From Nitrospira sp. (GTDB lineage Bacteria; Nitrospirota; Nitrospiria; Nitrospirales; Nitrospiraceae), in assembly GCA_024998625.1 (NCBI GenBank), contig JACOEL010000001.1:372001-436000 (forward strand): 64,000 nt of DNA. The letters are read 5' to 3'. Each line of letters begins with the position of its first letter. The first letter of the stretch is position 1. A program made the position numbers and the translations under genes. The notes under the pieces were generated by a model. The model searched no databases. It saw only the letters and a list, made by a program, of their open reading frames with translations, and was not told the origin of the DNA. Positions 4,720 to 13,768 of the stretch are shown one piece after another.

Positions 4720-4809
4720 GGAGGGGTGACGGAGTGGCCGAACGTGCCGGTCTTGAAAACCGGAGATGGGGTAACCTATCCGCGAGTTCAAATCTCGCCC
4801 CCTCCGCCA
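4720..4809 (+). tRNA. tRNA-Ser (anticodon TGA), CCA encoded
   Basis: The acceptor arms GGAGGGG (4720-4726) and CCCCTCC pair, followed by discriminator G and an encoded CCA at 4807-4809. The anticodon stem CCGGT/ACCGG encloses a loop with TGA at 4754-4756. There is a long variable arm, as expected for tRNA-Ser, and the T-arm contains GTTCAAATC. It begins 25 nt after the serS stop. Confidence 0.96.
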
Positions 4810-6043: not shown

Positions 6044-6073
6044 TTGACACGCCTTTCTTTATTATGATATTGA
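6044..6073 (+). promoter_or_regulatory. Promoter overlapped by the Fur box
   Basis: An exact TTGACA (6044-6049) is followed 18 nt later by TATTGA (6068-6073) as a possible -10 element. The -10 box lies inside the palindrome at 6068-6088, the classical geometry for Fur repression. The start of transcription would be near 6080. Confidence 0.5.
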
Positions 6074-6088
6074 GAATAATACTCAATA
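6068..6088. promoter_or_regulatory. Fur-box-like palindrome
   Basis: A 21-bp near-perfect inverted repeat whose core TGAGAATAATACTCA (6071-6085) fits the 7-1-7 Fur pattern TGAnAATnATTnTCA except for one position. It overlaps the predicted -10 box and transcription start. Downstream genes are an AraC regulator, TonB and a FecIR/receptor cassette, all expected targets of iron control. A Fur-family gene is in this window at 13804-14322. Confidence 0.65.
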
Positions 6089-6185
6089 CTGAAACAGTCT
6101 CTGCCAGGACTCTCCGCAGAGGCCCGAGGAATTTAATTCCCAGAGCCCACGGTCATACGATCGCGGGCTTTTTCTTTTTTTTTTT
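6080..6185 (+). ncRNA. Candidate Fur-controlled small RNA or attenuator leader
   Basis: From the predicted start near 6080, about 105 nt precede a strong intrinsic terminator. The segment holds a 6-bp hairpin CTCTGC (6099-6104)/GCAGAG (6116-6121), a short GGAATTTAATTCC palindrome, and the terminator hairpin at 6144-6169. There is no ORF with a ribosome binding site inside it. The arrangement of Fur box, short structured RNA and U-rich terminator resembles iron-responsive sRNAs such as RyhB or PrrF in layout, not in sequence. The alternative is a leader whose terminator is conditionally read through into the AraC gene at 6198. Confidence 0.4.
6144..6185 (+). terminator. Strong intrinsic terminator upstream of the AraC gene
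   Basis: AGCCC (6144-6148) pairs with GGGCT (6165-6169) and CGGTC (6150-6154) with GATCG (6159-6163), separated by one A-C mismatch and capped by a 4-nt loop. A run of T with a single C follows through 6185. It lies between the Fur-type promoter and the start codon at 6198, so it must be bypassed for that promoter to express the regulator. Confidence 0.8.
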
Positions 6186-6197
6186 GCGGGGGAACTT

Positions 6198-6704
6198 ATG
6201 CACCAAGACCGCCGGGCACGAATTATCGATACGTCCATCATCGGCATCGTCTCGTCCGGAAGCCCTTTGCCGTCAATCAACGCCTCACGACAACGGTCAG
6301 TGACCCACAGCCTGCGGACCAAACCACAACCTTTCTGGCCGACGCCGCAGATCGCGCCGCTCAATTCCGTTACCCCGGCGGCACGCTTGTCGGCCCAGTT
6401 ATCCAAGCGAAGCGGGGATCGCCTAACGTTGAAGGAACTTTCCACGCTTCTGGGGTACTCGGAGAAATACACCTCCGAGATCTTTCGCAAGTATATGGGA
6501 CTCTCCTTTTCCGAATACCTCAAACAACTGCATCTCGCCAAAGCGACGAAGCTCCTCAACGACCAGAATCTGACGATTGCCCAGATTGCGGAATCCGTGG
6601 GATTCAGCGACGCCTTCGCGTTCAGCCACTTCTTCAAACGAGCCATCGGATGTTCGCCGAGCGAATTTCGAAAACAACAGACTCCGGACGCAGGTTTGAG
6701 ATGA
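6198..6704 (+). CDS. Short AraC-type transcriptional regulator
   Basis: A 168-residue DNA-binding protein with only the AraC C-terminal module. Residues about 70-165 contain the two helix-turn-helix units: RLTLKELSTLLGYSEKYTSEIF, then LTIAQIAESVGFSDAFAFSHFFKRAIG with the family signature GCSPSEFRK. The N-terminal 65 residues have no recognisable ligand-binding domain, unlike PchR-type siderophore regulators. The ATG at 6198 has GGGGG five bases upstream, just after the terminator T-run. The stop overlaps the tonB start (ATGA), so the two are translationally coupled. Its position at the head of an iron-uptake operon suggests it activates siderophore uptake or synthesis genes. The signal it senses is unknown. 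Confidence 0.85.
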   Translation: MHQDRRARIIDTSIIGIVSSGSPLPSINASRQRSVTHSLRTKPQPFWPTPQIAPLNSVTPAARLSAQLSKRSGDRLTLKELSTLLGYSEKYTSEIFRKYMGLSFSEYLKQLHLAKATKLLNDQNLTIAQIAESVGFSDAFAFSHFFKRAIGCSPSEFRKQQTPDAGLR

Positions 6705-7624
6705 ACGATAAGGGCGAGTATCTGGCGCGAATGGGAGGATGGCTGGTTTCCCTGACCCTACATGGCCTGAGCCTCGGGACGGCGTTGGTCCTCGCGGCTG
6801 AATTCTCCGTTCTGCCAGAGCAGCGCCCCTTCCGCTGGGAAGTGGCAATGGTGAGCACGCCGACGTTGCAACCCGTCGCGGCGGACGTACCCGCCCCCCT
6901 TTCCGCATCGTCCGTCTCCCCTGCAGTCATGCCAAGGGACAAGGCTCCACGGCAGGTCCGTTCCCGTCCGAACGCCGCCAGTACCCAAGCGGCTCGTTCG
7001 CAGGAGGCTCGTTCCGGAATCGTCTCGCCTGCGCAAGATGGATTCGTCCGGCCACAAGCCACCGAGAACCCCTCCGTGGCCGTCGACAGTGCCCCGTCTG
7101 CCACTCATACCCCCTCAGCGGACCGGACATCCGACGAACCAGTGCACGAGGCGCCTCAAACCACACGTGTAGATCTTCCGGTCACCACGACGGAGCCGTC
7201 CGAAGTACCACCCCCTGCCGTTGAGACGACCGAACAATCCGCCACGACCTCCGTGCCTTCCATACCTGAATCGATCCGCCTCGTGAACCGCCCGACGCCT
7301 CGCGCCCGCGAGGCCACCGTCTCACGAGTACTCCATGCCGATTATGGATGGCTCGCCGAGATGTTGTTCAGAAAAGTCGAACAGAGCAAACGTTACCCGA
7401 CATTCGCCAAAAGCCGTCGCTGGCAGGGCAATGTCATCCTTCAAGCTGTCATCCATGAAGACGGCAGCATCAGCGACATTACGATCGTCACGCCATCGGG
7501 CCACTCGGTTCTCGATCTCGACGCCGTCGCTCTGCTCGAACAAGCGTCTCCGGTACAGCTGAAGTATCCACTCGGTCAATCCCATGTTGTCGTCCACATC
7601 CCCATCGGCTATCGCCTGGAATAG
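6701..7624 (+). CDS. tonB: TonB energy transducer (first locus)
   Basis: A 307-residue inner-membrane-anchored TonB protein that transmits proton-motive force to outer-membrane receptors. The start is the ATG at 6701 overlapping the AraC stop. One N-terminal membrane helix (about residues 12-32, in GWLVSLTLHGLSLGTALVL) is followed by a long Pro/Ala/Ser/Thr-rich periplasmic spacer (to about 220). The C-terminal TonB domain has KRYPTFAKSRRWQGNV and ends in a VVVHIPIGYRLE strand. The ECF sigma gene starts 8 nt later. No ExbB/ExbD lies next to it; it may share the pair encoded at 19.4-20.2 kb. Confidence 0.9.
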   Translation: MNDKGEYLARMGGWLVSLTLHGLSLGTALVLAAEFSVLPEQRPFRWEVAMVSTPTLQPVAADVPAPLSASSVSPAVMPRDKAPRQVRSRPNAASTQAARSQEARSGIVSPAQDGFVRPQATENPSVAVDSAPSATHTPSADRTSDEPVHEAPQTTRVDLPVTTTEPSEVPPPAVETTEQSATTSVPSIPESIRLVNRPTPRAREATVSRVLHADYGWLAEMLFRKVEQSKRYPTFAKSRRWQGNVILQAVIHEDGSISDITIVTPSGHSVLDLDAVALLEQASPVQLKYPLGQSHVVVHIPIGYRLE

Positions 7625-7632
7625 GATATATC

Positions 7633-8160
7633 ATGCAGAATGAACAGACACTTCCCTGCCTCACTGCCTTCGAAGAGCATCACAACGATCTGTTGAGGTT
7701 CTTCACCCACAAGCTCGGCTGCCGTGATCTCGCCGCCGATTGCACTCAGGACACCTACATGCACCTCGTACGCATGAGGTCTTCGATCGATGTGCAAAAC
7801 CCACGAGCCTTCCTCTTTCGTGTCGCCGCCAATCTCGCGGTCGACAATTTGCGAAAACTTCGTACCCGTCGAGGGGCGCTCAGCATCGAACCGCCCCCTG
7901 AGGAAACAGCCAGTCCGGCCCCGTCGGCCGAGGATACCCTGGACGCCAAGCAGCGGGTCGCCCAACTGGAAGTCGCCATGCGCGAACTGTCCCCCAAATG
8001 CCGGCGGGCCTTGTTGCTCAACAGGTTGGAAGGGAAGACACACCGAGAAATCGCCGACAGTCTGAAGGTGTCTGAGAGTATGGTCGCGAAATATATCGTC
8101 CAAGCCTTGCGGCACTGCCGCGCCCGCTTGCATTCGGAGGAATTCACCAGCAGATCCTAA
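7633..8160 (+). CDS. FecI-type ECF sigma factor (first locus)
   Basis: A 175-residue extracytoplasmic-function sigma factor of the iron-starvation FecI class. Region 2 spans roughly residues 10-75 with DLAADCTQDTYMHLVR and NPRAFLFRVAANLAVDNLRK. Region 4 lies at about 110-165 with LEVAMRELSPKCRRALLLNRLEG, THREIADSLKVSESMVAKYI and ALRHCRARL. It is 8 nt after tonB and about 90 nt before its probable regulator FecR. It probably directs RNA polymerase to the receptor gene at 9458 when the receptor signals ferric-siderophore binding. Confidence 0.92.
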   Translation: MQNEQTLPCLTAFEEHHNDLLRFFTHKLGCRDLAADCTQDTYMHLVRMRSSIDVQNPRAFLFRVAANLAVDNLRKLRTRRGALSIEPPPEETASPAPSAEDTLDAKQRVAQLEVAMRELSPKCRRALLLNRLEGKTHREIADSLKVSESMVAKYIVQALRHCRARLHSEEFTSRS

Positions 8161-8253: not shown

Positions 8254-9243
8254 ATGCCTGACTCGACACCTCCAGATTCCTCCTCTCCACTGGCCGACGA
8301 AGCCCTCGATTGGTTGGTCCGCATCCACTCCGGTCACGCCTCCGATGAAGACCGCCGGGCGTGCAATGCCTGGCGGACGAAAAGTTCCGCCCACCAACTC
8401 GCTTACGCAGAGGCGGAAATCCTATGGCGGGATATCGGCTTGCTGCCGAATGGCGATTGCGCCGGTTCGGCCGACCCGACGGCATCGATGCTGCACGGCA
8501 CGCTCCCGCATGCACGGCGCGCGATTAAGTGGGGACTAGCCGCTTGTGTTGTACTCGCCGCCGGTTGGCTCTCATGGGGAATCGTTCAAGAACAACTTGA
8601 CCTCGCATCAGCCGATTACCGCACCACAGTGGGGGAACAACGAAACGTCAGACTTGAGGACGGAAGTCGTATCCATCTTAACACCGATACCGCGGTCGCC
8701 GTCGCCTTCACCGCGCAGCAGCGAACGATCCGTCTGCTCACCGGAGAAGCCAGTTTCACCGTCACTCCCGAGACAGTACGACCGTTCACGGTACAGAGCG
8801 GAGATGTGAGCACCCGCGCGCTCGGAACGAGCTTTCTGGTTCAGCGTCATCAAGATGCCGTCACCGTGACCGTCACGGAGCATGCCGTTCAGGTATCCGC
8901 AGCAGAAGGCCGCCAGGTCTCCGCAGCGGTGGTCCGGCAAAGCGAGCAGATCTCCTACAGTGCCGAGGCCGGACTGGGCATGGCCCACGCCGTCGACTCC
9001 AATGCCATCGCAGCATGGCAACGTGGAAAAATGATCTTCGAAGCCCAGCCGCTGGCCGCAGTCGTCGAAGAGCTCAACCGGTACCGGGCCGGACGCATTA
9101 TGATTCTGAACTCGGCCCTTCGCTCACTGAACGTGACGGGTGTGTTTGACATTGGCGACCCGGATGCCGCGCTCCGAATGATTGAACAGACATTGCAAAT
9201 TCACGACACCACCCTGACGCCCTACCTCGTCCTCTTGCATTAA
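8254..9243 (+). CDS. FecR-type anti-sigma/sigma regulator (first locus)
   Basis: A 329-residue inner-membrane regulator of the adjacent ECF sigma factor. The cytoplasmic N-terminal domain (DEALDWLVRIHSG, RRACNAWRTKSSAHQLAYAEAE) binds sigma. A single membrane helix lies at about residues 92-110 (LAACVVLAAGWLSW). The periplasmic FecR domain has TVGEQRNVRLEDGSRIHLNTDTAV and VQSGDVSTRALGTSFLVQ. The C-terminal DUF4974-like part (AQPLAAVVEELNRYRAGRI, LNVTGVFDIGDPDAAL) should contact the receptor's STN domain. The start ATG at 8254 lacks a clear Shine-Dalgarno sequence, but an in-frame stop just upstream leaves no earlier start. Confidence 0.9.
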   Translation: MPDSTPPDSSSPLADEALDWLVRIHSGHASDEDRRACNAWRTKSSAHQLAYAEAEILWRDIGLLPNGDCAGSADPTASMLHGTLPHARRAIKWGLAACVVLAAGWLSWGIVQEQLDLASADYRTTVGEQRNVRLEDGSRIHLNTDTAVAVAFTAQQRTIRLLTGEASFTVTPETVRPFTVQSGDVSTRALGTSFLVQRHQDAVTVTVTEHAVQVSAAEGRQVSAAVVRQSEQISYSAEAGLGMAHAVDSNAIAAWQRGKMIFEAQPLAAVVEELNRYRAGRIMILNSALRSLNVTGVFDIGDPDAALRMIEQTLQIHDTTLTPYLVLLH

Positions 9244-9457
9244 CCTACACCTCAGCTTCCCTGAGACGTCATCCCTCCACTTCGCAAGTAATCCCTGTCT
9301 TCCGTCATCCCCTTCAAGTTTTTTTCCAACGCACACGATTTCGATTACAAGTTTTTCGGCCCGATCCGTCTTTACCTAATGAAACGCCGAGTGCGCATTG
9401 CTCGGCCCGTGCCCGAATACGTGCGCCTATTCATGCCGGACTAATAGAGGGGGAATG

Positions 9458-12001
9458 ATGCATCTCTCATGGCAAGTCGTCGTCACACTTTCCGTATCGG
9501 CCGTTCTGGTTCATACGGCCGGAAATCTGGCCGAGGCGTCGAACGAACGTCTCACCGCGCAGAGGACCGGCGCGCTGCTCCTCGCACAAGCACCGACAGC
9601 CGGCGAGCCGACGGAACCGATGGAGTTTAATATCCCTCCGCAACCGCTGGGCTCCGCCATCACCGCCTTTGCCGATCAAGCCAACTACCGCCTTCTCGTT
9701 CCCTCCGACATGGCTGAAGGCAGAACGACCAGTGGCGTCAGCGGCCGCCATACACCGGAGGAAGCCCTGACACTCATGCTGGCCGGAACGGGACTCGGTT
9801 ACCGGATGACCGAAGCCAGAACGATGACCTTGGAACCGGCGACGCTGACGTCGATGCCCCTTCCTCCGGCGCCCTTGAGCCAAGAACCGACGCCAACCAA
9901 TCTCAACCTGCAGACGCAGACTACGCCCAAATCGGTGAAGGTGCCTGAGATCGTCGTGAAGGACGTCGCGGAACGCGGGTATGTCGTCGATGAGTCTTCG
10001 TCAGCCACACGAATTCCTGTGCCCATTGAGGAAACGCCGCGAGCCGTCCAGGTCGTGACGAGACAGGTACTAGATGATCAAAAAGTCATACGTTTCAGTG
10101 AAGCGCTTCGAAATGTGAGCGGTGTCTCTCAGGCGACGACGCAAGGAGGACAGGGCGGCACCTTCATGATCCGCGGTTTTGCATCCGACCTCAATGTCTT
10201 CAAAAACGGTTTCCGAGATGACAGCACATTCGGATCACGCGCCCAACGCGACGTCATTAATATTGAAAGCATCGATGTCGTGAAAGGCCCCCCCTCCTAT
10301 CTGTATGGCCGATCTGATCCAGGCGGTGTCATCAACCAAATCACAAAGGCCCCACTTAAAGAACGATACTATTCCACAGAAATGATCATCGGCAGCTATG
10401 GCCTGTACCGACCGCAGTTCGACATCGGTGGGCCATTGAACGCCAGCAAGACACTGACCTATCGATTCAACGGCATGTATGAATCGGCTGGAAGTTATCG
10501 GGATGGAGTGTACACAAACCGAATTTTTCTCGCCCCGACGATCGGGTGGGAAGCCGGATCACGAACAACTTTTCGCTTCGAAGGCGAGTATTTCTTTGAC
10601 AAATCTCCCATTGACCGTGGGTTGGTTGCGATCAGTCGAGGGGTCGCGCCGATTCCGATCACCAGCTTTCTGGGCGACCCGACCAGAAAGTCGGAAGTTC
10701 AGCATGGCAAAGCCACATTGATCATGGAACATTGGTTCAACGACATGTTCAAGTGGCGAAGCGCATTTCGCGCAGCCGTAACGAAGAGCGGATATTCTTC
10801 GCTCGAAGGTATGGGCCTGCTAGATCCTAATGGCACGTTTCTTTTAGGCAGATTTGAGATCCCGACCACCGTTCAAAGCCATTACTTGCAAAACGAATTA
10901 CACGGTGTATTTTCGACCGGTTCCATCAAGCACAAGACCATTATCGGCATCGAGCTGGGCCGGGAAGTCTCCAGCGCAGTGCAGTTCGACGACGGCTTCG
11001 GTGGCTTGGGCAGTACTATTAACATCTTCAATACAAACATTCGATCCTTTATCAATGAGCCTCTCACAAAAACCTTCGATACCAAACAGGTCAATAATGT
11101 TCTCGGAGGATACTTCGGAGATCACATCAGTCTACTCGAGAATCTCCATGTCCATGCCGGAGGGCGATTGGACCTCTTCGAACAAAATCTCAATGATCGC
11201 TTCAACAGTACATCCGACAGTCAAACCAATCGTGCATTCAGCCCCTCCGTCGGAATTGCCTATCTGCCGTGGAAGCCGATCACACTCTACGCAAACTATA
11301 CCGAGTCCTTTGCCCCTCAGACGGCCGGGGCAAGAAGCGCGACCAATTCCATCTTTGACCCTGAACGAGGAAAAGCCCTTGAAGGAGGCGTGAAATTACA
11401 GGCTTTCGACAACCGGTTGCGCGCCAATATCGCCGTGTTTGATATCAGGAAGAAGAACGTGTTGACCCCCGATCCAAATGCCGGGTTCTTGTTCTCCGTT
11501 CAAACGGGCGCGCAACGCAGCAAGGGCATTGAATTCGACATTGCGGGAAAGATTCTCCCCGGTTGGGATATCATCGCCAACTATGCCTACATCGATGCCC
11601 GCATCACTCAAGACAATGTGTTTGCCCTAGGCAGCCGCGTGCCCAATAGCGCCCTGCATCAAGGAAGTTTGTGGACCACCTATTTCTTCCAAGAGGGTGT
11701 CGTGAAGGGGTTCGGTGCCGGCGTCGGTATGTATGCGCAGGGCAAGCGGAACGGCATCTTTCAATGTCAAGATCCCACAAGTTGTCAGGATCCATTTGAT
11801 CTGGAAGGTTATGTGCGCATGGATGCGGCCTTGTACTATCGCAAGCAGGAGATCTTTGACAAGACCAATGTGCTGGCCGCACTGAACTTCACCAATGTGC
11901 TGGGACAACGGTATTTCACCGGAGCACAAAACTTCCGTGAGATCATCTATACCGGAGCCCCGTTCACAGTGATCGGATCCCTCAAGTTCGAGTTTCACTG
12001 A
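9458..12001 (+). CDS. TonB-dependent siderophore receptor with STN signalling domain (first)
   Basis: About 847 residues: an outer-membrane beta-barrel receptor that imports a ferric siderophore and signals through FecR. A signal peptide is followed by an STN (secretin/TonB short N-terminal) domain at about residues 50-125 (FNIPPQPLGSAITAFADQA, GRHTPEEALTLMLAGTGL). A TonB-box-like VPEIVVKD lies near 165. The plug starts at TPRAVQVVTRQVLDD and includes IESIDVVKGPPSYLYGRSDPGGVINQITK. The barrel follows to a C-terminal LKFEFH strand. Siderophore-receptor text such as YANYTESFAPQ and FDPERGKALEGGVK is present. GAGGGGG precedes two adjacent ATGs (9455 and 9458); the second has better spacing. A strong hairpin follows the stop. 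Confidence 0.93.
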   Translation: MHLSWQVVVTLSVSAVLVHTAGNLAEASNERLTAQRTGALLLAQAPTAGEPTEPMEFNIPPQPLGSAITAFADQANYRLLVPSDMAEGRTTSGVSGRHTPEEALTLMLAGTGLGYRMTEARTMTLEPATLTSMPLPPAPLSQEPTPTNLNLQTQTTPKSVKVPEIVVKDVAERGYVVDESSSATRIPVPIEETPRAVQVVTRQVLDDQKVIRFSEALRNVSGVSQATTQGGQGGTFMIRGFASDLNVFKNGFRDDSTFGSRAQRDVINIESIDVVKGPPSYLYGRSDPGGVINQITKAPLKERYYSTEMIIGSYGLYRPQFDIGGPLNASKTLTYRFNGMYESAGSYRDGVYTNRIFLAPTIGWEAGSRTTFRFEGEYFFDKSPIDRGLVAISRGVAPIPITSFLGDPTRKSEVQHGKATLIMEHWFNDMFKWRSAFRAAVTKSGYSSLEGMGLLDPNGTFLLGRFEIPTTVQSHYLQNELHGVFSTGSIKHKTIIGIELGREVSSAVQFDDGFGGLGSTINIFNTNIRSFINEPLTKTFDTKQVNNVLGGYFGDHISLLENLHVHAGGRLDLFEQNLNDRFNSTSDSQTNRAFSPSVGIAYLPWKPITLYANYTESFAPQTAGARSATNSIFDPERGKALEGGVKLQAFDNRLRANIAVFDIRKKNVLTPDPNAGFLFSVQTGAQRSKGIEFDIAGKILPGWDIIANYAYIDARITQDNVFALGSRVPNSALHQGSLWTTYFFQEGVVKGFGAGVGMYAQGKRNGIFQCQDPTSCQDPFDLEGYVRMDAALYYRKQEIFDKTNVLAALNFTNVLGQRYFTGAQNFREIIYTGAPFTVIGSLKFEFH

Positions 12002-12155: not shown

Positions 12156-12350
12156 TCAGTCTTGGTATTCGATGGAATCAGGAGCAGCACACATGAGGTA
12201 ATTCTTGAACTTTGAAAGAGGAAGGACCACCAGCTCTCCGCAGCGATGGCACTTCACGACCACTCCGCGCTTCTCGAGCCGAGCCGTGAGCCTGCCACAG
12301 AGACACCGTATGTCTTTCCCCGTCTGAGAGACTGTCACTTTGTTCACCAT
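12156..12350 (-). CDS. Small Com-like zinc-ribbon protein
   Basis: A 64-residue protein with CLCGRL (about residues 16-21) and KCHRCGEL (about 33-40), together a four-cysteine zinc ribbon. The pattern IRCxCxxLxA...VxxKCxRCxE resembles Com, the Mu-phage translational activator, and its many small chromosomal relatives. No Mu prophage genes are present, so a phage role is not implied. The start codon is ATG at 12350 without a good Shine-Dalgarno sequence. It lies between the receptor and the PepSY gene on the opposite strand. The function is unknown; nucleic-acid binding is an inference from fold. Confidence 0.6.
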   Translation of the reverse strand: MVNKVTVSQTGKDIRCLCGRLTARLEKRGVVVKCHRCGELVVLPLSKFKNYLMCAAPDSIEYQD

Positions 12351-12359
12351 GGTTGGTTT

Positions 12360-12512
12360 CTACCCAGGCAGACGGTCACTGCCCCTTCTTAATAGGACGC
12401 ATGAGCGACACAAAACCTTACCCTCATGGCTCCAAGGTGTGGTTTCAGGCAGGTCACACGTCTTATTAAAAAGGGGCTCATGGTGTTCCTCACAGACGCG
12501 AATCTCCTGCAT
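12360..12512 (-). CDS. Possible small Cys/His-rich protein
   Basis: A 50-residue ORF (62 codons if started at 12542) directly upstream of the Com-like gene, 9 nt apart. It reads VCEEHHEPLFNKTC and later KVLCRSCVL, giving a possible Cys-His...Cys...CxxC metal site. No clear ribosome binding site is seen, and the ORF is overlain by an inverted repeat (12381-12477). It could therefore be a shadow of a structured intergenic region. It is listed because its cysteine spacing parallels the neighbour. Confidence 0.3.
   Translation of the reverse strand: MQEIRVCEEHHEPLFNKTCDLPETTPWSHEGKVLCRSCVLLRRGSDRLPG
12381..12477. repeat. Imperfect inverted repeat, 18-bp arms
   Basis: The arms at 12381-12398 and 12460-12477 are complementary at 16 of 18 positions with a 61-nt centre. 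Each arm has the related motif CAGGCAG(n)GTCAC just to its left (12365 and 12445 areas), forming a direct repeat. The element sits upstream of the PepSY gene and overlaps the possible small minus-strand ORF. There is no transposase and no clear target-site duplication, so its nature is open. Confidence 0.45.
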
Positions 12513-12541
12513 CGGCCGCCGAGGAAGATCGGAGACAGACA

Positions 12542-13768
12542 ATGATCGTCAGCCAGCTCCAACCCATGCGCGTGCCTTCGAAAACGTCCCGTCCGCATAC
12601 CTCCACGCCCCCAGTAGGCCAGGCCTCACCCCAACCTGCCCGTAAGGTCTGGCGAAAGGTGTGGCTAAATCTGCACCTCTATATCGGTCTGATTGGAGGC
12701 GCGCTGTTCGTCCTCACTAGCCTCACCGGCAGCCTCCTGGTGTTCTACAAGACCATCGATGAATGGCTGAATCCGGAGCAGTTGATCCGGACTGCCGGTA
12801 GCGATCAACCCCTGAGCGACATCGTAGCGGGCGCCCGGACCATGCATCCTGACTGGTCTCCCCCTGACACCCTCATCTTTCCGCTCCACGAGCGTGACAC
12901 GTTCCATGCTTGGTTCAAGGATCCTGCTGCCGCACCGCCCGAAGAGCGCTGGCACGTCGTCGCCGTCGACCCATCAACCGCCCGCCCCTTGAGTGATCGC
13001 CGGTGGGGTAGCTTTTTTGTCTCGTTCATATACGAATTGCATCAGGAACTCCTGCTCGGGAAACCGGGCGAGATGTTCGTCGGCATCATGGCCGTTTTTC
13101 TCCTCGTTTCGATCGGGAGCGGGCTGTATCTCTGGTGGCCTGCTCCGGGGAAACTGGGCCGGGCCCTGTCGCTGCAATCCGGCGGGAGTCCCATCAGAAG
13201 ACATTACGATGTCCACAAGCTCACTGGCCTGGCCGGGACCCTCTTGCTGACCCTCCTCGCCGTGACCGGGTTTTATTTGGAGTTCCCGGAGGCCGTCACC
13301 TCGGTCGTGCGCTGGTTCTCGCCCGTGCGGGACACCTCATCCGAACTGCAGCCAGGGTCCGAACTGCAGGCCGCAGTATCCAGAATCCAGCCCGAGCAGG
13401 CCGTCGCAATCGCCCGCACCGCCTTCCCTGACGCCAAGCCGATGTGGATCGGCTTACCGCAACATGAGCGGGACAGTTATTCCGTAGGGCTTCGTCAACC
13501 GGGAGAAATCCGACAGGCGGGGGGGCAAACCGAGGTGTGGATCGATCAATACAGCGGGGCGGTGCGGCGGGTCCAGGACTGGCAAGAGTTCACCCGCGGA
13601 GAAACCCTGTTGTCTTGGCTCTTTCCTCTGCACAACGGCGAGGCGTTCGGGTTGACCGGCCGCTGGATGATGTTCTTCGCCGGTTTCACGCCGCTGCTGC
13701 TCTATGTCACGGCCTTGCGGATGTGGTGGTTGAAACGAGCCGCACACCGACGCCGACGAGAAGCCTGA
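12542..13768 (+). CDS. PepSY-associated membrane protein, possible siderophore-iron reductase
   Basis: A 408-residue inner-membrane protein of the PepSY_TM family. After a short cytoplasmic start, the first membrane helix reads LHLYIGLIGGALFVLTSLTGSLLVFY. A PepSY-type periplasmic domain follows, then helices at about 178-198 (MFVGIMAVFLLVSIGSGLYLWW), 225-245 (LTGLAGTLLLTLLAVTGFYL) and near the C-terminus (MMFFAGFTPLLLYVTALRMWW). Histidines next to helices (NLHLY, ELHQE, RHYDVHK, LFPLHNG) could bind haem. Relatives, including FpvG of the pyoverdine system, are tied to periplasmic reduction of ferric siderophores. That role fits the neighbourhood but is inferred. GGAGA lies about 7 nt before the ATG. 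Confidence 0.85.
   Translation: MIVSQLQPMRVPSKTSRPHTSTPPVGQASPQPARKVWRKVWLNLHLYIGLIGGALFVLTSLTGSLLVFYKTIDEWLNPEQLIRTAGSDQPLSDIVAGARTMHPDWSPPDTLIFPLHERDTFHAWFKDPAAAPPEERWHVVAVDPSTARPLSDRRWGSFFVSFIYELHQELLLGKPGEMFVGIMAVFLLVSIGSGLYLWWPAPGKLGRALSLQSGGSPIRRHYDVHKLTGLAGTLLLTLLAVTGFYLEFPEAVTSVVRWFSPVRDTSSELQPGSELQAAVSRIQPEQAVAIARTAFPDAKPMWIGLPQHERDSYSVGLRQPGEIRQAGGQTEVWIDQYSGAVRRVQDWQEFTRGETLLSWLFPLHNGEAFGLTGRWMMFFAGFTPLLLYVTALRMWWLKRAAHRRRREA

Follow-up and report, generated by a model that had tools for sequence, protein, structure and literature searches.

A candidate Com-linked conditional terminator behind Fur-type promoters of iron-acquisition operons in Nitrospira

The AraC-TonB operon and its leader

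The window analysed here, the whole stretch of 64,000 nt from a Nitrospira sp. contig, contains an operon for an AraC-family regulator, TonB, a FecI-type sigma factor, FecR and a TonB-dependent receptor, which is preceded by a promoter, Fur-box-like sites and a structured leader RNA. The features of the locus are as follows.

6044-6071, plus strand: sigma-70-like promoter, TTGACA (6044-6049), 16-nt spacer and GATATT (6066-6071), 10 of 12 consensus matches
6065-6088, no strand assigned: two overlapping Fur-box-like 7-1-7 sites (TGATATTGAGAATAATACTCAATA) over the -10 and the probable transcription start
6078-6185, plus strand: predicted leader RNA, terminated product of ~108 nt, fold z -4.2, kept in 17 of 29 genus genomes
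6097-6123, plus strand: hairpin H1 (GUCUCUGC/GCAGAGGC), one compensatory G-C to A-U change
6121-6147, plus strand: family core GGCCCGA - H2 (6128-6140) - C-N-GA - GCC, invariant in the family alignment, with H2 covarying; proposed binding hairpin of the Com-like protein, or antiterminator
6121-6123 with 6145-6147: predicted P1 pairing, enclosing H2
6142-6185, plus strand: intrinsic terminator H3, stem 6142-6171 and U run to 6185, compensatory changes in the inner stem
6198-6704, plus strand: AraC-family regulator (HTH_18), first gene after the terminator
6701-7624, plus strand: TonB
7633-8160, plus strand: FecI-type ECF sigma factor
8254-9243, plus strand: FecR
9398-12001, plus strand: TonB-dependent receptor with STN domain, start codon uncertain
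12156-12350, minus strand: Com-like four-cysteine zinc protein, proposed trans-acting RNA-binding factor, from the family alignment and a profile match to phage Com
13804-14322, minus strand: Fur-family regulator beside the operon

A ZIP-type gene is found upstream of the operon, and a PepSY protein is encoded further downstream along with the Fur-family regulator. A small Cys/His-rich ORF (CEEHHEPL..LCRSC; 12360-12542, minus strand) lies immediately upstream of the Com-like gene. Elsewhere in the window, a tRNA gene (4720-4806) directly follows the seryl-tRNA synthetase gene, which is an ordinary arrangement.

An earlier sequence-only reading of this DNA had described a TTGACA promoter, a palindromic Fur-like site over its -10 box, two hairpins and a strong terminator just before an AraC regulator, and all of these parts were found again in our analysis. 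The GATATT that follows TTGACA is a weak -10. In the Fur-like site TGAGAATAATACTCA (6071-6085) 11 of 14 positions agree with the 7-1-7 Fur consensus, a score that no other site within the 64 kb reaches. A second match of 10/14 begins 6 bp upstream of it, at 6065, and overlaps it, overlapping Fur boxes being the usual layout. Transcription probably starts at about 6078, and the leader from there to 6185 has a predicted folding energy of -35 kcal/mol compared with -21.5 ± 3.2 for 200 shuffled sequences, with three hairpins, the terminator among them, at 6097-6123, 6128-6140 and 6142-6171. The U run of the terminator is separated by only ~12 nt from the AraC start codon (ATG 6198), for which GGGGGA is the Shine-Dalgarno (SD) sequence. 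The 3' arm of H1 contains the GGC at 6121-6123, so that H1 competes with P1. Attenuation by a leader peptide and ribosome stalling was rejected, since the leader has no ATG, GTG or TTG between ~6078 and the terminator.

Conserved copies upstream of AraC/tonB genes in relatives, which the sequence-only reading had proposed to look for, were indeed detected; among the 29 genus genomes searched, the matches run from at or near the promoter/Fur box to the terminator, and in the 17 genomes that keep the block from TTGACA through the terminator it always heads the AraC-TonB operon. The order TTGACA, 15-16 nt, TGATAYTGAGAA Fur box, RNA, terminator, AraC and TonB is the same in 17 of 17, with TTGACA spaced 15 nt from TGATA in 16 of them and 16 nt in one, and TGATAYTGAGAA..TCAA is kept at the Fur box throughout. 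FecI follows TonB wherever the compared stretch extends that far, and the distance from the terminator end to the AraC start codon is mostly ~20 nt or less, which leaves no room for another promoter. In the leader RNA of these homologues GAGGCCCGAGGAAU and AUUCCC-N-GAGCCCACGGUC are invariant and the loop of H1 is variable. The genus-only alignment was uninformative for covariation, its sequences being too conserved, with the single compensatory change noted in H1.

The RNA element family in Nitrospiria

Further copies in the family were uncovered with a first covariance model, R1, built from 10 sequences of the genus. A second model (R2) of 32 diverse members, found starting from the R1 hits, matched 127 of the 395 phylum genomes at E ≤ 1e-4, with 1-7 copies in each. 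The core shared by the family is GGCC(A/C)GAG-[hairpin]-CNGAGCCC-terminator, the 3' half of which reads C-N-GAGCCC. As R2 was trained on R1 hits, membership of the weak copies is partly circular; independent support for the family is given by covariation in H2 and in the inner terminator stem, by the Fur boxes and by linkage to the Com-like protein. Weak R2 matches in distant families (E 0.002-0.01) were treated as chance and ignored. Two elements are present in the genome from which the window comes, the window leader and, on contig C7, a copy that precedes an HD-domain gene. A loose core pattern gave 45 matches in this genome and 46 in the reversed control; the pattern is therefore unspecific and only the two strong covariance-model matches count. 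The matches listed for a loose DNA pattern across the genome contigs were likewise chance matches. Searches with the Rfam 15 covariance models, at the gathering cut-offs and at E ≤ 1-5, gave no credible match and none to RyhB or PrrF, the lowest-E match in the window being L10_leader, with 20 bits against a cut-off of 44. No earlier description of the element or its regulon was found in the open-access literature searched.

The genes found 3' of the element are exbB, tonB, fecI, TonB-receptor, bfd-like, araC and HD-domain genes, as well as genes for multicopper oxidase and small zinc-ribbon proteins. Many elements of iron genes have a Fur box 20-90 nt upstream, and a Fur match of at least 11/14 was found within 110 nt upstream of 24 of 124 distinct elements, compared with 0.6% in shuffled sequence. 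After nearly all copies of this Fur type a co-directional gene starts within ~12-90 nt, without room for a promoter of its own. A group of copies lacking a Fur box is situated between operon genes; the gene on their 5' side encodes a conserved membrane protein of 172 aa, and the one on their 3' side is of the HD-domain, AraC, haem-peroxidase-like or porin type. This multi-operon regulon, the HD-domain copies without Fur box and the linked Com-like zinc protein extend beyond what the earlier reading had described. We also observed that the small zinc-ribbon genes (CxxCGG..CVNCGW) of other genera are located after a Fur box and an element. In order-level relatives (family f2, L240-L248) the element is followed after 20-110 nt by another conserved hairpin, whose loop is UCUCCUCCUG-like (anti-SD-like) and which precedes a haem-peroxidase-like or AraC gene.

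The sequence-only reading had offered two interpretations, an iron-responsive sRNA of the RyhB/PrrF kind or an attenuator controlling the AraC regulator and the tonB/fecIR operon. The attenuator is the one that our data support, whereas an sRNA as the main function is not supported, given the leader position, the 1-7 copies per genome, and the lack of an Hfq match in this genome and of an Rfam match. Promoter, Fur box and terminator do make up a complete small transcription unit and, as in RyhB/PrrF, a Fur box over the promoter is combined with a structured RNA of ~100 nt and a U-rich terminator; the several copies per genome, as for PrrF1/2, and the strong conservation of sequence blocks could also be expected of Fur-repressed, trans-acting sRNAs, independent genes whose products pair with iron-protein mRNAs and for which the downstream gene is incidental. 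Unlike RyhB/PrrF, however, the element is the leader of the gene that follows it, co-directional and ~12-90 nt away with no space for its own promoter, and it is present in many copies over different operons and needs no trans target. Copies without Fur box between operon genes, and terminator-less copies at start codons, also speak against independent sRNA genes. Moreover, a search for Hfq gave no match in the own genome while control genomes were positive, and the conserved core is better explained by the linked gene for an RNA-binding-type protein. We consider a family of such sRNAs unlikely; the terminated RNA may have an additional role in trans.

Core structure and the linked Com-like protein

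The outer arm of the terminator, GAGCC, can alternatively pair as P1 with the invariant GGC located 5' of H2. P1 consists of 3 bp and a GA-rich internal loop that separates it from H2 and shows G-A/A-G oppositions, and an A to C change at core position 11 in five elements creates a C-G pair opposite G27. H2 has 60 distinct sequences among 81 parsed elements, and at least three consecutive pairs are formed in 88%; when the 5' half of one element was combined with the 3' half of another, this share was 48% on average and 64% at most. Its second pair occurs as G-C, A-U, U-A and C-G, and its third as U-A, A-U, C-G and U-G. The inner stem of the terminator covaries as well, double-change cells numbering 36 where shuffles give 10.4, and in the outer stem, which is shared with P1, five of the six pairs never vary and the sixth changes only between G-U and G-C. 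The predicted probability of P1 has a median of 0.41 in truncated leaders and is low in most leaders of genus g1, where H1 competes for the GGC. With P1 only moderately stable in these predictions and H1 competing with it, a P1-H2 antiterminator that excludes the terminator is no more than plausible. A kink-turn was rejected for the GA/GA internal loop, as the bulge has 2 nt and the C-stem does not fit, and a CsrA site (ANGGA) was rejected as well, since this motif is not general in the family core.

A protein of 54-65 aa with the pattern RCxCGxLxARx6EIKCxRCxRLVxIP recurs upstream of the elements. In families f7, f8, f9, f19 and f32 too, which otherwise have little in common, its gene is 13-83 nt upstream of the element. 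Three of its CxC..CxxC cysteines are invariant among 21 members and the second is present in at least 90%. The Pfam family of phage Com, PF10122 (Zn_ribbon_Com), matched 11 of the 21 at E ≤ 1, with 1.2e-5 as the best value, and the only match at E ≤ 1 of one member to phage proteins was an annotated gpCom (E 0.3). In the reverse search seven phage Com proteins scored 36.6-16.4 bits against the family profile, and hhalign gave 96.6%; a PDB fold search with the predicted model (mean pLDDT 72) gave no significant match. By these comparisons the protein resembles Com of phage Mu, and we refer to it as Com-like rather than class it as Com because the window copy, at 13.4 bits, is under the curated PF10122 cut-off of 22.9 and because the first knuckle is constantly C-x-C, compared with C-x2-C in phage Com.

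The distribution of the Com-like protein follows that of the element. Both are present in 121 phylum genomes, the element only in 3, the Com-like protein only in 15 and neither in ~251 (Fisher 2.6e-79, kinship ignored), and outside the order 9 of 9 element-bearing genomes have the protein. Among the matches listed, 101 of 127 Com-like genes are within 8 kb of an element, 98 of them on the same strand, where a rough estimate of the chance expectation is about 1%; 90 are within 4 kb, all on the same strand, and 27 within 300 nt. This count was made on the best listed matches of both searches plus further element copies, and neither co-occurrence nor linkage had been used for discovery of the element. 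The window-type Com-like protein is found in all 17 leader-bearing genus genomes and otherwise only in one (G015), whose contig breaks off some 1.2 kb past the gene. In the own genome, the second element, on C7, is preceded at a distance of 3.4 kb by the other Com-like gene, and the order at this locus (L344, C7:112500-117234), which is Com-like, a 531-aa porin-like, a 153-aa, a 228-aa and a 172-aa membrane protein, element and HD-domain gene, recurs in relatives.

SELEX with Com from Haemophilus sputorum selected two GAG-NN-CC cores in loops that flank a variable-sequence stem of 3-4 nt (PMC6483171); Com protects GA dinucleotides, binds CC-N2-3-GAG in a loop but the duplexed motif weakly, and acts by keeping a blocking hairpin open (PMC6483171). 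The core of our element, which had been defined beforehand and independently of this motif, has a similar layout, CC-N-GAG, variable stem and CC-N-GAG-CC, with spacing shorter by 1-2 nt. GCC-N1-3-GAG was also present at all seven of the phage com/target junctions examined. In these phages (L350-L356), com, in several cases unannotated, is followed directly by a gene of DNA-modification type, with GCC-N-GAG motifs just before the start codon of the latter. The Nitrospiria system is like Com/mom of phage Mu in having a small four-cysteine zinc protein, with a gene often immediately upstream of its proposed target, and a candidate target RNA with GAG and CC cores that flank a short variable stem. 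It differs in that the Com-like gene is chromosomal, with up to several paralogues and the C-x-C first knuckle, and its targets would mostly be intrinsic terminators, and so act in transcription, of many iron and other operons instead of a single DNA-modification gene.

The same data bear on a riboswitch, in which P1-H2 with its GA-rich loop would be an aptamer for iron, haem or another metabolite or metal, in competition with the terminator, and the Com-like protein would be only a member of the regulon. The invariant internal loop is aptamer-like and mutually exclusive with the terminator, the regulon is iron-related and, as in terminator-type riboswitches, a compact conserved domain overlaps the 5' arm of a terminator before the SD. 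Such an aptamer would, however, measure only ~27 nt, and in contrast to riboswitches the element matches no Rfam class and is linked to a protein factor, with near one-to-one co-occurrence and tight linkage to one protein family even in f7, f8, f9, f19 and f32; its core, moreover, matches the published architecture of the Com target (PMC6483171). We judge a riboswitch to be improbable, on a par with the sRNA family.

A proposed antiterminator behind Fur-controlled promoters

An intrinsic terminator between the promoter and the first gene, a feature of protein-dependent attenuators, is present at the locus, and we consider it probable that a Fur-controlled promoter is followed here by a conditional terminator, beyond which transcription continues if the leader is bound by the Com-like protein. 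Iron-bound Fur would block the promoter, and low iron would open it. By default, the leader of ~108 nt would terminate before the AraC start, releasing the short RNA and leaving the AraC-TonB-FecI-FecR-receptor operon off, and H1 of the window leader would favour this terminated state by competing for the same GGC. The Com-like protein is proposed to bind the nascent leader at the bipartite core GGCC(A/C)GAG-[H2]-C-N-GAGCCC. Since the outer 5' arm of the terminator coincides with the 3' half of this core, protein bound there would prevent closure and allow read-through into the operon. As the 3' GAGCC is both presumed half-site and terminator arm, and Com binds a duplexed motif poorly, binding should hold the terminator open, from which we infer antitermination behind the Fur-controlled promoter. 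Across Nitrospiria, the same element and protein would serve numerous iron-acquisition operons as well as loci without Fur control. The proposal has its counterparts in the LicT/SacY, PyrR, TRAP, HutP and ANTAR attenuators, in which a protein-bound leader hairpin and an intrinsic terminator are mutually exclusive, but protein and RNA are unrelated to these, the promoters are Fur-controlled, and terminator-less copies at start codons exist too.

These terminator-less copies keep the core including GCC. Tandem elements precede a porin gene at L249 (about 3742, minus strand) and L250 (3646-3674), where the first has a terminator and the second, just before the porin SD, is without a U-run terminator. 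At L301 (6963), L348 (5910) and L349 (8392), each on the strand of the Com-like gene, a terminator-less core comes right after the Com-like stop codon; it folds as P1-H2, and its H2 loop contains the AUG of an AraC gene. The position of the AUG suggests that the Com-like protein may also act on translation, and binding at such start-codon sites might bring about repression instead of activation. At these loci the Com-like gene itself has an element with a terminator in front of it, a possible case of autoregulation.

An unregulated, constitutive partial terminator whose only effect is on the proportion of short RNA to operon mRNA would agree with the strength of the terminator, but many sequences would terminate equally well, and yet the outer stem and the sequence 5' of it are nearly invariant while the inner stem varies freely, and the terminator-less copies retain the core; we regard this explanation as very doubtful. 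A DNA operator formed by the CCAGAG direct repeats for linked AraC-type regulators, which do bind direct repeats and follow several elements, is hardly credible, as many copies have no adjacent AraC gene, the core is oriented 5' to 3' before the terminator, and the repeat spacing varies with H2 length while H2 pairing is kept despite sequence change, which fits an RNA and not a DNA operator.

Beyond the locus, the antitermination proposal can be extended to a chromosomal regulon of Com-family RNA-binding proteins in Nitrospiria, paralogous antiterminators, translational at some genes, that act on the one RNA element behind the Fur promoters of most iron-uptake operons, a generalisation for which we see the case as evenly balanced. 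The nitrite- and ammonia-oxidising enzymes of Nitrospira have a high demand for iron, the acquisition of which would be controlled by an RNA family that is so far undescribed and has a candidate protein partner. If the proposal is true, the Fur regulon is under a second, RNA-level control, and Com, a protein studied only in phages, has a cellular counterpart; Com, studied as the translational activator of one gene, would gain a chromosomal regulon and a transcriptional role. The signal that the Com-like protein would sense, added on top of Fur, then becomes testable.
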